In this document: positions 16,673 through 21,991 of the stretch, piece after piece
Position numbering within the stretch: the first letter of the stretch is position 1
Layout: every line of letters starts with the position of its first letter
Assembly: GCA_020354665.1 (NCBI GenBank)
Contig: CP070653.1
Coordinates: 1,779,304-1,824,104 of the forward strand
Source of the DNA: Burkholderiales bacterium
GTDB taxonomy: Bacteria > Pseudomonadota > Gammaproteobacteria > Burkholderiales > Burkholderiaceae_C
Direction: 5' to 3'
Length of the DNA: 44,801 nt
Translations under genes and position numbers: made by a program
Notes under the pieces: generated by a model
What the model was told of the DNA's origin: nothing
The model's database searches: none
What the model saw: only the letters and a program-made list of their open reading frames with translations

Positions 16673-17311
16673 ATGCTTCGTTACGTCACCGTTCCCGTCA
16701 CCGCCTTCGCGCAGAACTGCTCAATCGTCTGGTGCGACCATTCGGGCAAGGCCACCGTGATCGACCCCGGCGGTGACCTGCCGCGCCTGCGTGCCGAGAT
16801 CGCACGCCTCGGAGTGCGACTCGATGCGATCTGGCTGACGCACGCGCACATCGACCATGCCGGCGGCACGGGCACGTTAGCGCGCGAGGAATGCGTGCCG
16901 ATCGTCGGCCCGCATCCTGGCGACCAGTTCTGGATCGATGCGCTGCCGCAGCAGAGCGCGATGTTTGGGCTCCCGATGGCCGAGCCGTTCACGCCCACGC
17001 GTTGGCTGCACGACGGCGACACAGTGGTGATCGGCGAATCGACGCTGCGCGTGCGCCACTGCCCCGGTCACACGCCGGGGCACGTCGTCTTTCATTCACC
17101 GGAGGCGAAGCGCTGCTTCGTCGGCGACGTGCTCTTTGCCGGTAGCATTGGCCGCACCGACTTCCCCGGCGGCGACTTCGACACGCTCGTTTCGAGCATC
17201 ACCGAGCGCCTCTGGCCGATGGGCGACGACACCGTCTTCATCCCCGGCCACGGGCCGGAGAGCACCTTCGGTGAAGAGCGCCGCAGCAATCCGTTCGTGG
17301 GCGGAACCTGA
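16673..17311 (+). CDS. MBL-fold metallo-hydrolase (YcbL/glyoxalase II-like)
   Basis: This 212-residue hydrolase has the full binuclear metal site of the glyoxalase II branch of metallo-beta-lactamase-fold enzymes: THAHIDH at 56-62, CPGHTPGH, GDVLFAGSIGRTDFPGGD, and FIPGHGPEST near the C-terminus. The length and the SIGRTDFPGG motif fit the single-domain YcbL-type proteins and not full-length hydroxyacylglutathione hydrolases, so the thioester substrate is inferred. The ATG at 16673 begins the family homology (MLRYVTVPVTAF). It follows the exonuclease gene by 122 bp on the same strand. Confidence 0.9.
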   Translation: MLRYVTVPVTAFAQNCSIVWCDHSGKATVIDPGGDLPRLRAEIARLGVRLDAIWLTHAHIDHAGGTGTLAREECVPIVGPHPGDQFWIDALPQQSAMFGLPMAEPFTPTRWLHDGDTVVIGESTLRVRHCPGHTPGHVVFHSPEAKRCFVGDVLFAGSIGRTDFPGGDFDTLVSSITERLWPMGDDTVFIPGHGPESTFGEERRSNPFVGGT

Positions 17312-17346: not shown

Positions 17347-18273
17347 TCAGGCCTTCGGTGGGGAAAACCGCTGCGTCGGCTTGGCCGCACGCTGGTACTC
17401 GGGCTCGATGCGCGGCAGGCGAGCCTCGATGTCGTTGATGCGGGTGGCACCCGACGGGTGGGTCGACAGCCACTGCGGTGGCGCACCCTTGTTGGCCGAG
17501 AGCATCTTCTGCCACAGCGTGATGCCGGCGCGCGGGTTGTAGCCTGCGCGCGCGGCGAGGCGCAGGCCAAGCGCGTCGGCCTCCGATTCGTCCTCGCGGC
17601 TGAACTTCAGTGTCAGCAGGTCCGCGCTGCCGCGGACCACCGCGTCGCCGAGCGCGCCCAGCCCGAGCAGCGCTGACAGCGCCGACGCACCCACTTGGGT
17701 AACGGTCGTCTTGCCGACGCGCTCTCGCGCGTGCTCCAGCAAGGCGTGCCCGATCTCGTGGCCCATGATCATCGCCACCTCGTCGTCGTCGAGCTGCAGC
17801 TGCGCGAGGATGCCGTAGTAGAAGGCGATCTTGCCGCCGGGCATGCAGAACGCGTTGAGCTGCTTCGAGCCGATCAGATTGACCTCCCATCGCCAGTCGC
17901 GCGCGCGCGGATTGCAGCCCTCGGTGAACGGGACGATGCGCGCGGCGATTGCGCGCAGCCGCACGACCTGGGGATGGTCGCTCGGAGCGACCGCGCCCTT
18001 GCCTGAGGCCTGTTGCAGCATCTGCCGATACTGCTGGCCGGCGCTCTGCTCGATCTGCTCGGCAGAGATGACTTTGGTGAAACCCGAGCGCTTGCATTCG
18101 GCCATCGGCTCGAGCGTCTGCGCGCGCACCAGGGGCACGCCACCGATTCCCAGCACGCCGGCGCCCAGCAGGGCTGCGAACCCGCGCCGCGCGTGCAGCG
18201 CACAGCGGCAGCCGTGGCCATGGGCAAGCGCGGGCTCGGCAATTCGGGCGTCTGTGTTGAACGGTGCCGTCAT
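17347..18273 (-). CDS. M48-family zinc metallopeptidase, exported
   Basis: This 308-residue zinc protease resembles periplasmic LoiP/BepA-type M48 peptidases. A twin-arginine-like signal (ARRGFAALLGAG then a hydrophobic stretch ending PLVRAQ, residues about 33-58) suggests export, possibly by Tat. The HExxH site is HEIGHALLEHA and the third ligand is in EDESEADALGLRLA; STHPSGATRINDIEARLP is the usual C-terminal block. No TPR repeats follow, unlike BepA. ATG 18273 was chosen as the first conventional start; longer readings run antisense into ampG. It lies 43 bp downstream of ampG on the same strand. Confidence 0.88.
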   Translation of the reverse strand: MTAPFNTDARIAEPALAHGHGCRCALHARRGFAALLGAGVLGIGGVPLVRAQTLEPMAECKRSGFTKVISAEQIEQSAGQQYRQMLQQASGKGAVAPSDHPQVVRLRAIAARIVPFTEGCNPRARDWRWEVNLIGSKQLNAFCMPGGKIAFYYGILAQLQLDDDEVAMIMGHEIGHALLEHARERVGKTTVTQVGASALSALLGLGALGDAVVRGSADLLTLKFSREDESEADALGLRLAARAGYNPRAGITLWQKMLSANKGAPPQWLSTHPSGATRINDIEARLPRIEPEYQRAAKPTQRFSPPKA

Positions 18274-18316
18274 GGCTCGGTTGGATGCTGGGCCGAGCGC
18301 CGCAGTTCCTGCTTCG

Positions 18317-19927
18317 TTACCCGCCGCGATGCGGGCGTTGGTCGCGTCGCGCCAATCGCTGGTCTTCCGCACCGGCCGTCTCGCTGGGATCGACTTCGAG
18401 CGCTCGCACCGCCCCCCGCAACCGCCACAGCATCCACAACGCCGGCAGCGCCGCCGCGGTCGACACGATGAAGAAGTCCGGCCAGCCGATCGACTCGGCC
18501 AGCACACCGGCCAGCGGCCCGACCCAGACGCGCCCGACCGCCGCAAATGCCGACAGCAACGCGTACTGGGTCGCGGTAAATCGATGGTTGCACAAGCTCA
18601 TCAGGAATGCGACGAACGCCGCTGTGCCCATGCCGCCTGACAGGTTCTCGAAAGCGATCACCATCAACAGCCCACCATCCACAGGCGTAGGCTGCGCGAG
18701 CTGAACGAAACCCCTGTCGAAGGCGGGGATCACCAGCCCCGGCAGCAGCCCCTTGCCGCTTACCGCGAGCCACCAGAAGCCGAGGTTGCTCGCCATCTGC
18801 AGCACGCCGAACACCAGCAGTGCGCGCCATAGGCCAAGTCTGAGCATCAGCGCGCCACCGACCAAAGCTCCGCCGATCGTCAGCCACAGGCCGATGATCT
18901 TGTTGACCACGCCGACCTCAGCCGCGCTGAAGGCCATCGCCTTGAGCAAGAACGGCGTCATCAGCGCACCAGCGAAAGCGTCGCCGAGCTTGTAGAGGAT
19001 GATGAAGAGCAGGAACGCTGCAGCCCCCGGCTGAGCGAAGTAGCTGCGCAAGCCCCCCAATAGCGTTTCGAACTTCGCGGCGCGCGCCGCCCAACCCGCC
19101 AGCGGCAGGGTGAGGGCCACCCCCAGCATCAGCGCGAGCAGATCGGTCCACTTGTCCTGGAGAGCGGCTGCCGAGCCGCCGCCGAACAGCGGCTGCAGCA
19201 ACGCACGCGCCAGCGGCACGCCGAACCGGTCGGTCAGCATGACTCCGACCGCAACCGCAGCGAGCACCGCGAGGAATCCCAGCACATCGTTGCGCGCGAC
19301 GGTCTGGCGCGTGCCGGCCGGTACGGACACGCGCGGCAGCACCAGCGCCGACAGTGCCGCAGCAGCCACCATCAGCAACGCCATGAAGTGGTACACCTCC
19401 GGCCAGCTCCAGCCACCGGCCTGGTTGACGTCGGTCCAGATGAAGGCGATGCCGCCCGACAAAATCATCGCCAGTCGGTAGCCCATCACATTGAGTGATG
19501 CACCGAGGCCGCGCTCTGCGGCGGGCAGCAGATCGGTGCGATAGGCGTCGATCACGACGTCCTGCGACGCCGAGAGAAATGCCACCGTCACCGCGAGTAG
19601 CGCAAACGCACGGATGGCGCCAGTGGGTGAGGTCGCTGCCATCGCCGCGAGCACGGCAGCGAGCAACAGCTGCGTGAGCACGAGCCACCCGCGTCGCCTC
19701 CCGAGCCACGGCAGGTCGAAGCGGTCCATCAGCGGCGCCCAAAGGAACTTGAACGTGTAGGGCAGCCCCACCAGGCTCAGAAATCCGATGGTGGCTATGT
19801 CGAGCCCTTCCATCGTGAGCCAGGCCTGCATCGCCTGGCCCGTCAGCGCGAGCGGCAGTCCCGACGAAAAGCCGAGCAGCGTAACGACGACGAGGCGATG
19901 AAGGGCTGCGGCACGCGCGGCGGACAT
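18317..19927 (-). CDS. ampG: AmpG-family muropeptide permease (MFS)
   Basis: This is a 536-residue major-facilitator transporter that imports anhydro-muropeptides for cell-wall recycling. AmpG hallmarks are the N-terminal LLGFSSGLPLALTGQ, IGFLSLVGLPYTFKFLWAPLMDRF, DVVIDAYRTDLL, and the C-terminal FENLSGGMGTAAFVAFLMSLCN with ATQYALLSAF. About twelve to fourteen hydrophobic helices can be counted. It lies 40 bp after the anti-sigma gene and 43 bp before the M48 peptidase gene, all in one direction. Confidence 0.92.
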   Translation of the reverse strand: MSAARAAALHRLVVVTLLGFSSGLPLALTGQAMQAWLTMEGLDIATIGFLSLVGLPYTFKFLWAPLMDRFDLPWLGRRRGWLVLTQLLLAAVLAAMAATSPTGAIRAFALLAVTVAFLSASQDVVIDAYRTDLLPAAERGLGASLNVMGYRLAMILSGGIAFIWTDVNQAGGWSWPEVYHFMALLMVAAAALSALVLPRVSVPAGTRQTVARNDVLGFLAVLAAVAVGVMLTDRFGVPLARALLQPLFGGGSAAALQDKWTDLLALMLGVALTLPLAGWAARAAKFETLLGGLRSYFAQPGAAAFLLFIILYKLGDAFAGALMTPFLLKAMAFSAAEVGVVNKIIGLWLTIGGALVGGALMLRLGLWRALLVFGVLQMASNLGFWWLAVSGKGLLPGLVIPAFDRGFVQLAQPTPVDGGLLMVIAFENLSGGMGTAAFVAFLMSLCNHRFTATQYALLSAFAAVGRVWVGPLAGVLAESIGWPDFFIVSTAAALPALWMLWRLRGAVRALEVDPSETAGAEDQRLARRDQRPHRGG

Positions 19928-19967
19928 CGGCCGATTCTAGAGAGCCGCCTCGCGGCGGCGTGCCGAC

Positions 19968-20813
19968 TCAGCGCGGTGATTCCGCCGGAATCGTCGGTTG
20001 TTGCGCGTAGATCGACTGTGCCAGCGCCAGCAGGCGCTCGCGCGGCAGCGCGCCGGCGAGTGCATATCCCGCACGCCCTTCAACCCAGTAGAACAGGCCG
20101 ACGTCACCCTGCCGCTCGAAGCGGAAGGCCGCCGGCACCGACTCGGCAGCACGGCGCAGCGTGACAGTGACCCGCGCGCCGCCCGGCTGCTCGTACATCA
20201 GCAGCGCGCTCACGCCGTTGGGCCCGTCGGGTAGCAACCGGCCGCCAACGAGCGTGAATCCTTCGGCGCGCAGGTCGAACAGCTTGACCGGCAGGTCGAC
20301 TCGGCGCGTCAGCCACTGCTGAAGGTGCGCCTCCTGTTCAGAACGCTGCGTCTCCGCGGTCGTTGCCAGATTGACTTCGACCGGATGACGTTGCTCGGCG
20401 GCGTAAACACGATGCGCCAGAGCGGCGCGCTGCACCCAACCGGCCGGTGAGGCTGCCCGTGCGAACGCGTTCGCACTGTCGTACTGACCGCGCCACTGCC
20501 ATCCGCCGAAGCTGCCGGCCACGCCGCCGATCACGAACGCGGCAACGGCCGCCGCTAGCGGCCAGACCGGCCCCGCCAGATACCCTTGGCGTGCCCACAC
20601 GCTTCGCGCGAGCGGTTGCGGCACCGGTTCGTCGACCACGGAGGCAAAGCGTGCGCGCAGCGCATCGCGGTCGGCTGACCACAGGCGCACGCGCGCCGCG
20701 GCCTCGGGGTGCTGTTGCAGCCAAGCTTCGACTTCGGCCCGGCGTGCCGGCTCAAGCTCGCCGTCGAGCCAGGCGCTCAGCACGTTGTCCTCGATAACGG
20801 AGGGAGTGTTCAT
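19968..20813 (-). CDS. Membrane anti-sigma factor
   Basis: This 281-residue single-pass protein follows the ECF sigma gene by six bases. Its N-terminal cytoplasmic part (LSAWLDGELEPARRAEVEAWL, residues 12-32) has the helical pattern of anti-sigma domains that bind ECF sigma factors. No HxxxCxxC zinc motif is present. One membrane helix lies at about 83-103, followed by a periplasmic domain (about 110-281) that presumably senses the signal. The signal is unknown. Regulated proteolysis or a conformational change would release the sigma factor; the M48 peptidase two genes downstream is only a circumstantial candidate. Confidence 0.88.
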   Translation of the reverse strand: MNTPSVIEDNVLSAWLDGELEPARRAEVEAWLQQHPEAAARVRLWSADRDALRARFASVVDEPVPQPLARSVWARQGYLAGPVWPLAAAVAAFVIGGVAGSFGGWQWRGQYDSANAFARAASPAGWVQRAALAHRVYAAEQRHPVEVNLATTAETQRSEQEAHLQQWLTRRVDLPVKLFDLRAEGFTLVGGRLLPDGPNGVSALLMYEQPGGARVTVTLRRAAESVPAAFRFERQGDVGLFYWVEGRAGYALAGALPRERLLALAQSIYAQQPTIPAESPR

Positions 20814-20819
20814 GGTCGG

Positions 20820-21371
20820 TCAGATCACGCGGCGCAGGGCGCGCGCTGGCGGCGCGCACTCGCTGCCGTCGAGCAGCGCGCGCAGCGCAGTGCGCGCGCG
20901 CGAGATGCGCGACATCACAGTGCCGATTGGGATTCCGAGCGCCTGCGCGCACTCGGCGTAACTGAACTGCTCAATGCTCACCATCAGCAGCGGTTCGCGC
21001 TGCTCGGGTGGCAGGCGCGCGAGCGCGGCGGCAAGGTCCATTCGCAAGGCGATGTCTGGAGCCGGCTCGTAGCGTTGCAGGTCGCTCTCGGCCAGCACCT
21101 CGGCGGGATCAACCACGCGCACCCGGCGCTCGCGCCGGCGGTCGTCGATGAATGCGTGGTGTGTGATCCCGACAAGCCAGACGACGATGTCTCGGCGCTG
21201 GTCGAACTGGTGCCAGTGCGTCAGCGCGCGCTCGAGTGCCGTCTGCACCAGGTCGTCGGCGGCAGCAGCGTCGAACACCAAGCCGCGCGCATAGCGCCGC
21301 AACCGCGGAATCGCGGCGAGCAACTGCCGGCGAAAGGCATCGGGGGCTTGCACCTTCGGTCTACGCGCCAC
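20820..21371 (-). CDS. ECF (sigma-70 family) RNA polymerase sigma factor
   Basis: This 183-residue extracytoplasmic-function sigma factor has region 2 (about 15-85; DAAAADDLVQTALERALTHW binds core polymerase and the -10 element) and region 4 (about 115-170; LPPEQREPLLMVSIEQFSYAECAQALGI with the helix-turn-helix IPIGTVMSRISRAR). The start is GTG 21371 with a modest GGGG ribosome site. It heads a minus-strand run with its anti-sigma factor, AmpG and an M48 peptidase. I could not find a convincing ECF-type autoregulatory promoter in the 92 bp shared with the divergent flavin reductase gene. Confidence 0.93.
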   Translation of the reverse strand: MARRPKVQAPDAFRRQLLAAIPRLRRYARGLVFDAAAADDLVQTALERALTHWHQFDQRRDIVVWLVGITHHAFIDDRRRERRVRVVDPAEVLAESDLQRYEPAPDIALRMDLAAALARLPPEQREPLLMVSIEQFSYAECAQALGIPIGTVMSRISRARTALRALLDGSECAPPARALRRVI

Positions 21372-21463
21372 GGCCCCACTGTATTCCGCCGTTTGCCCCG
21401 ACCCGGCGCTTGGAGCATGACCCAGGGGGGGCCGAGGCCCCGCCTTTGTCCTAGGATCACTGC

Positions 21464-21991
21464 ATGTCCCCGCTGTTGCGCGCGCATCCGCCGAGCTTTT
21501 CGAGCCTCGAATTCCGGGCGGCCCTCGCGATGTTCGCCACCGGGGTGACGATCGTCACCGCCCGCGACCCAGACGGCCAGTGCATCGGACTCACCGCGAA
21601 CTCGTTCAATTCGGTCTCACTCGATCCGCCGCTCGTGCTGTGGAGTCTGTCGCGGGCGGCGGCATCGCTGACCGCGTTCACGCGCGGCTCGCACTACGCG
21701 ATCAACATCCTCGCCGCCGACCAGCGCACGCTGGCCGACCGCTTCGCGTCCCGCGCGGGCGACCGCTTCGCGGGCATCGCCTTCCGCGAAGGGGCCGGTG
21801 GCGCGCCGGTGCTGGAGGGCGTCGCTGCGGCGTTCGAGTGCTTCAACCGCAGCCGCTACGAAGAGGGCGACCATGTCATCTTCGTCGGTGAAGTCGAGCA
21901 CTGCGAGCGGCAGGAGGGTGCCTCGCCGCTGATCTTCCACGGCGGGCGCTACTACACCGAGCTGCCGCTCGATCGTTCGGCAAACTCTTGA
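21464..21991 (+). CDS. Flavin reductase-like FMN-binding protein
   Basis: This 175-residue split-barrel flavoprotein resembles the reductase components of two-component flavin monooxygenases. The ATGVTIVTARDPDG segment, LTANSFNSVSLDPPLVLWSL, and the C-terminal PLIFHGGRYYTEL are characteristic. ATG 21464 has an AGGA ribosome site eight bases upstream. It diverges from the ECF sigma gene. No monooxygenase partner is adjacent, so the flavin acceptor in the cell is unknown. Confidence 0.9.
   Translation: MSPLLRAHPPSFSSLEFRAALAMFATGVTIVTARDPDGQCIGLTANSFNSVSLDPPLVLWSLSRAAASLTAFTRGSHYAINILAADQRTLADRFASRAGDRFAGIAFREGAGGAPVLEGVAAAFECFNRSRYEEGDHVIFVGEVEHCERQEGASPLIFHGGRYYTELPLDRSANS

Follow-up and report, generated by a model that had tools for sequence, protein, structure and literature searches.

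An ECF26-type sigma/anti-sigma pair next to ampG and an M48 protease gene in Burkholderiales, with two promoter-like elements that suggest nested transcription units

Group ECF26 of the extracytoplasmic function (ECF) sigma factors includes Sinorhizobium RpoE1, RpoE4 and RpoE6 and Starkeya SigE. Its promoters are reported to have a -35 element GGAATA and a -10 element GT or CGTC (PMC6180224; PMC6527743), Lipoprotein_15 is named as a common partner (PMC6180224), and two characterized members respond to sulfite (PMC3511301). Here we analyze a run of four minus-strand genes, encoding an ECF sigma factor, an anti-sigma factor, an AmpG-family permease, and an M48 metallopeptidase, within a window of 44,801 nucleotides from a Burkholderiales bacterium (contig CP070653.1, positions 1,779,304 to 1,824,104). 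The window pair resembles the ECF26 pairs in its sigma sequence, in the -35 GGAATA and -10 CGT of its promoter, in a downstream anti-sigma factor with membrane and periplasmic parts, and in the small regulon predicted here; it differs in adjoining ampG and an M48 gene rather than a Lipoprotein_15, DUF305 or sulfite-oxidase gene. The RpoE-RseA-RseB system (AlgU-MucA-MucB) is also comparable, since it too has a membrane anti-sigma factor and the periplasmic part of the window protein is predicted to fold like the small domain of RseB/MucB; however, this domain is fused to the anti-sigma factor in the window, whereas RseB is a separate protein, and the promoter type differs. The explanation that we favor, at somewhat better than even chances, is that the locus contains two nested transcription units, in which stress-driven read-through into ampG and the M48 gene is added to their basal expression.

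A conserved four-gene order

An open reading frame (ORF) check of the window confirmed the genes, the strand, and the gaps of 6, 40, and 43 bp given in an earlier note made from the sequence alone, and family searches agree with the families named there. The window belongs to a single-contig genome of 3.64 Mb. The sigma ORF spans 20820-21371 and its product matches PF08281 and PF04542; its assignment as ECF26-like is drawn from the Pfam/NCBIfam scan, from orthologues in genomes G011 and G005, and from a tree. The GTG at 21353 (gene 20820-21353) is a more likely start than 21371, both because the first possible start sits at the matching place in the two orthologues and because the longer reading begins inside a conserved promoter, which its first six codons overlap. 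The anti-sigma gene (19968-20813), recognized by profile scan, alignment, and predicted structure, follows the sigma ORF after 6 bp. Next, 40 bp further on, is ampG (18317-19927), whose product exceeds the TIGR00901 cut-off (456.9 bits against 350) and matches solved AmpG structures (E 3.6e-107, alignment in three blocks); the protein nonetheless falls under stricter NCBI equivalog cut-offs, and muropeptide transport is a prediction. The M48 gene (17347-18273 from its ATG, a start set by comparison with G011) lies 43 bp beyond. Its product matches PF01435, carries the HExxH motif as HEIGH, has 3c37 and BepA as solved relatives, and is probably exported, judging from an RR-containing signal-like N-terminus. 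It shares the M48 domain and HExxH with the LoiP and BepA proteases, but scores far under both cut-offs and thus represents a separate branch.

We searched 399 genomes of the family with the sigma protein and obtained a bimodal result. A subgroup of sigma factors in 42 genomes (source included) showed 58-70% identity at E 1.9e-42 or better, its weakest match being a partial gene, while the next match outside the subgroup had 51% identity at E 1.6e-39. The loci of the other 41 subgroup genomes were fetched and compared with the window; one outsider with a 51% identical sigma factor (L227, G313) was left out of the counts. The order sigma, anti-sigma, ampG, M48 was kept in 32 of the 42 genomes and 13 of 19 genera, and an anti-sigma match was present in 40 of 42. 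The anti-sigma gene and ampG were less than 700 bp apart in 29 of these 32 genomes, including one locus (L195) with 1.3 kb between ampG and the M48 gene, and 1.7 to 4.9 kb apart in three. Such gaps run to tblastn hit starts and are therefore slightly long; some negative AmpG/M48 gaps are artefacts of merged hits in different frames, and our home-made gene caller does not cope with certain loci of very high GC content. Sigma carriers include Rhizobacter, Piscinibacter, Aquabacterium, Methylibium, Rubrivivax, Ideonella, and Caldimonas, not every one with the whole cluster. The relatives are not independent, so these counts are of genomes and not of events. Recurrence in 32 of 42 subgroup genomes places the four-gene arrangement beyond chance. 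In seven loci (L192, L206, L216, L229, L230, L234, and L237) about 1.2 to 5 kb is inserted between the anti-sigma gene and ampG. In L224 (G069), a stop lies inside the sigma match and the anti-sigma gene was not found; this is perhaps a decaying copy of the system.

The layout is also kept where the permease itself changes. In four loci (G005, G124, G069, and Rhizobacter L236), the ampG slot holds a second, distant AmpG-like type (L122 9278-10828; L204 5514-6965; L224 4457-5992; L236), with 32% identity to the window permease where measured (G005 and G069). This type groups apart in the tree, and the G005 protein scores 257.6 against the TIGR00901 cut-off of 350. The tree suggests an in-place gene replacement.

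A comparison of gene order across 60 relatives, the kind of comparison that the earlier note had proposed, gave a different picture from that within the subgroup. Among the matches listed, ampG and M48 relatives were at most 5 kb apart in 28 of the 60 (7 on the same strand, 21 divergent), and the sigma pair stood in front of them in only three (source genome, G011, and G005); in the remaining 25, the best sigma and anti-sigma matches lay elsewhere or there were none. Among the 60, G043 is entered without an M48 position, none being listed for it. With most ampG-M48 neighbors lacking the pair, these two genes therefore do without the sigma factor in the order at large. The earlier note had also remarked that the combination was not known to its author as a described unit, and among the matches listed we found no description of it in the literature; the contexts in the 2021 ECF classification could already list it.

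Promoter-like elements and predicted sigma targets

A predicted ECF promoter, GGAATA-N16-CGTA, lies on the minus strand at 21362-21387 (read 21387-21362) and ends 8 nt before the GTG start, so the sigma mRNA would be leaderless or nearly so. Of 41 loci, 38 carry the motif GGAAT[AG]-N16-CGT[AC] immediately 5' of sigma, and the spacer is 16 nt in every one. In two further loci the motif lies 129 and 272 bases upstream, and it is absent in G079; L215 was left out for want of a readable anchor. A scan of both strands of 1.12 Mb gave 40 matches with this spacer, all upstream of sigma, compared with 3, 3, 3, and 2 for spacers of 14, 15, 17, and 18 nt. The clade promoter fits the ECF26 consensus.

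The strict form GGAATA-N16-CGTA was searched genome-wide in 20 of the 42 clade genomes and three others, and occurred one to five times per genome. The sigma gene's own strict site was present in 18 of the 20 clade genomes, and nine had no other; the three genomes outside the clade had one match each, none at a sigma factor of this subgroup. We take autoregulation with a tiny regulon to be likely from these sequences, because the own site is conserved and 9 of 20 genomes lack any other strict site. The additional sites were considered as a wider regulon and dropped, since the 20 non-self matches in the clade genomes compare with 12 for a backward-read control. Three of them are in the source genome. 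One (L329, G000:C1:1065915-1065940) lies 90 bp before a cytochrome c' gene and another (L318, G000:C1:2817596-2817621) 134 bp before the gene of a 79-aa secreted orphan without a Pfam match, both possible sigma targets; downstream of the third, no gene was called over 1.5 kb. In G075, a strict site lies 36 bp upstream of a gene for a protein that looks, on inspection by eye, like Lipoprotein_15 proteins.

The second element, which resembles a -10 element, is a TAGAAT box on the minus strand at 19934-19939, separated from the ampG ATG by 6 nt. Boxes of the TAGAAT type, mostly C[CT]TAGAAT, stand 5-7 nt before the start of ampG in 27 of the 33 clade loci whose ampG N-terminus is readable. The same test gave 0 of 40 for the anti-sigma gene, 0 of 42 for sigma, 4 of 33 for the M48 gene, and none for four flanking genes (17, 13, 11, and 11 loci). 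With the looser TANNNT, the counts were 28 of 33 for ampG, 7 of 33 for M48, 0 of 40 for anti-sigma, 1 of 42 for sigma, 1 of 17 for a flavin reductase gene, and 3 of 13 for a metallo-hydrolase gene; TAGAAT itself occurs three times in the window, both strands counted together. One survey describes leaderless bacterial genes as marked by TANNNT about 12 bp upstream of the start codon and reports this sign in 9 of 71 beta-proteobacterial genomes (PMC3160421). The ampG box looks like a leaderless housekeeping promoter, predicted to serve ampG and the M48 gene.

This box was missed by a simple scan, in which the three junctions contained no sigma-70 consensus promoters and no terminator-like sites. 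That scan was uninformative overall, with 0 promoter-like sites and 4 terminator-like sites compared with 3.2 in shuffles. The anti-sigma/ampG gap contains a hairpin with a 6-bp GC stem (GCCGCC-GCGA-GGCGGC, minus strand, 19944-19959), which has no T-run and a z of -0.82 and is not a standard terminator, and all eight junction stretches folded no better than shuffles. No standard terminator was thus seen in the window junctions, in agreement with the earlier note.

The flanks belong outside the unit. A flavin reductase-like gene (21464-21991, plus strand) is divergent from the sigma gene, and a metallo-hydrolase gene (16673-17311, plus strand) converges on the cluster from downstream. Of the 42 genomes, 15 have a flavin reductase gene within 1 kb of sigma; within 500 bp of the M48 gene, a Crp-type regulator gene is found in 13 of 33 and a metallo-hydrolase gene in 8 of 33. 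The tested flank genes are thus less constant than the four-gene order, in neighbor tests that covered a fixed set of query genes. Boxes resembling a -10 element also precede two flank genes in the window, TAGGAT at 6 nt for flavin reductase and TACGAT at 8 nt for metallo-hydrolase, and these are rare in relatives.

The sigma factor and its putative membrane-bound partner

In a midpoint-rooted tree of 43 sigma factors, read without support values, the window clade is sister to Burkholderiales ECFs in ECF26-type contexts; an ECF from pSymA is the nearest outgroup and six other ECFs fall outside. The window sigma thus groups with ECF26 rather than with the other ECFs. The pSymA protein, which we take to be RpoE6 from its position in an unannotated record, is 40% identical to the window sigma factor. 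Related sigma factors of other Burkholderiales (about 50% identity or less) adjoin Lipoprotein_15, SnoaL, and DUF305 genes and have the same promoter type, with one member of each scanned. Such neighbors are much like those reported for RpoE1-type ECF26 loci (PMC3511301; PMC6527743). None of the annotated immediate neighbors of the window pair is a Lipoprotein_15 or sulfite-oxidation gene; the contexts of rpoE3 and rpoE4 are not widely conserved either, according to one report (PMC6180224).

The anti-sigma factor scored just under the zf-HC2 cut-off (20.6 against 22.2); of 30 family members, 28 reached E 1 or better against zf-HC2. Its sequence shows an N-terminal helical domain without cysteines, and hence no zinc motif, followed by one hydrophobic stretch. 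An alignment of the window protein with 29 of the 32 found (the exceptions being L239, which has masked letters, L251, and L261) was used for structure prediction, which gave a mean pLDDT of 81 and a pTM of 0.56. The model comprises N-terminal helices at residues 9-60 (block pLDDT 86-97 beyond residue 10), then a helix of low confidence where the hydrophobic stretch lies, and last a periplasmic domain. The modeled N-terminus is a helical anti-sigma domain of class I type; its first 60 residues compare weakly with ChrR in the SigE complex (Z 4.5), and 70 N-terminal residues are 37% identical to the partner of the pSymA ECF. A downstream anti-sigma gene of COG5662 type, whose product has a membrane helix and a periplasmic C-terminus, is a trait of the ECF26 group, and the window gene shows this placement and predicted layout.

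The modeled periplasmic domain resembles the small domain of RseB/MucB by Foldseek (E 2e-5) and in a VIA comparison (Z 9.5, rmsd 2.4 Å over 96 residues, the first unrelated row being at 7.8). Nothing seen in the model corresponds to the large RseB domain, and the anti-sigma profile gave one weak match to solved structures (E 0.074). Invariant periplasmic residues in the alignment include H134, E140, R142, H143, and E146, and the same motif occurs in anti-sigma factors beside the related sigma factors of other Burkholderiales.

Coupled or independent transcription of the sigma pair and ampG-M48

The genes, their conserved order, and the two conserved promoter-like elements are visible in the sequences. 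From these we infer how the locus may be transcribed and regulated, including read-through and release of the sigma factor, what signal it may follow, and what role it may have. The ECF26-type pair would drive itself from GGAATA-N16-CGTA, with the membrane anti-sigma factor holding the sigma factor until a periplasmic signal reaches the RseB-like domain. The genes for AmpG and the exported protease would be transcribed from a leaderless housekeeping promoter of their own. Read-through into them by active sigma is proposed because no terminator was seen between the units, and it would raise muropeptide uptake and periplasmic proteolysis under stress. In favor of coupling sigma to ampG are the gene order kept in the clade, the small number of sigma targets predicted elsewhere, and the replacement of the permease within its slot; we also count in its favor the single GH3 (NagZ-type) and single Amidase_2 (AmpD-type) matches in the source genome. 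The earlier note had proposed one operon. Partial support for it comes from a cluster conserved in one Burkholderiales branch and from a strongly conserved ECF promoter of the sigma pair, but the box before ampG has the look of a promoter of its own, and two overlapping transcription units are therefore more probable than one plain operon. Both kinds of evidence that the note had set against its own proposal were found at least in part: a box in the anti-sigma/ampG gap that looks like a promoter, to the extent that sequence shows it, and ampG-M48 neighbors in genomes where the sigma pair is not in front of them.

The strongest alternative is that the sigma pair and ampG-M48 are two independent neighbors, kept in order by descent only and without useful read-through. 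We regard this as possible though rather unlikely; it is compatible with an output of sigma elsewhere. Several observations weigh against nested units or for independent neighbors. The intact order is missing in 10 of 42 genomes, comprising one sigma-anti-sigma-M48 locus, one that has sigma and an AmpG-like gene but neither anti-sigma nor M48, six with the pair only within the stretch fetched, and two (L215 and L226) merely at contig ends, which are counted in the 42 although unable to show the full order. In six genomes (G220, G119, G415, G282, G355, and G234), ampG and M48 remain paired away from sigma, and in G156 (L211) ampG has gone from the cluster while M48 still follows the anti-sigma gene. 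No ECF site directly precedes ampG in these seven genomes or in the split loci L192, L206, and L216, so linkage has been lost without compensation and sigma control of ampG is at least dispensable. The internal box also points to independence, as do the ampG-M48 neighbors that lack the sigma pair in other genomes. The box occurs in two of seven loci where ampG is separated from sigma (G282 and G415), in two of eight related ampG loci without sigma (G007 and G027), and in one of 18 that are more distantly related; it is seldom present outside intact clusters, and independence from the sigma locus is therefore shown in few cases. Further points against the nested units are that no recognizable -35 was seen for the ampG box, that terminator-like hairpins occur in the anti-sigma/ampG gap in 2 of 29 loci (L189 and L190), and that conserved order may be inherited without function. 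Against independence, order and strand persist across 13 genera while the tested flanks change more, the permease has been replaced in place, few other sigma targets are predicted, and the box is found less often at ampG genes away from sigma.

It is less probable still that the output of sigma lies elsewhere, for example in secreted redox proteins as in other ECF26 systems, with ampG-M48 as bystanders. The sites before the cytochrome c' gene, the secreted orphan, and the Lipoprotein_15-like gene of G075 agree with such an output; however, the other strict matches are near control numbers, no target was seen in common between genomes, and in 9 of 20 clade genomes only the sigma gene's own site was found, among CGTA sites, CGTC having not been searched genome-wide. 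A single operon transcribed from the sigma promoter only and sensing wall damage, as first suggested, would account for the close gaps without a terminator, the order, and the ECF promoter, but is the least probable reading given the conserved box before ampG, the sulfite response described for two sigma relatives, the lack of support for wall-damage sensing by the cluster, and the presumption that recycling would stop in normal growth if the permease were made under stress only, as ampG is the only AmpG match listed for the source genome at E 0.001.

Within the nested-unit explanation, we tentatively suggest, as a possibility that we would not yet expect to hold in full, that this ECF26 branch was rewired from sulfur and redox defence to wall housekeeping. 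The sigma pair would have a built-in RseB-like sensor and its own cluster as the only real output; read-through, added to basal expression from the leaderless promoter, would boost the one muropeptide permease of the cell together with a periplasmic protease. In some genera the permease would have been exchanged in its slot for a distant relative and the circuit kept. More generally, the comparison illustrates that close same-strand gene runs can hide a second, leaderless promoter. The RseB-like domain in the model, fused to an ECF26-type anti-sigma factor, suggests how a large and poorly understood group may sense the envelope. With its precise promoter and small predicted regulon, the cluster offers a way to test whether an ECF stress sensor is connected with the recycling of peptidoglycan in Burkholderiales of the environment.

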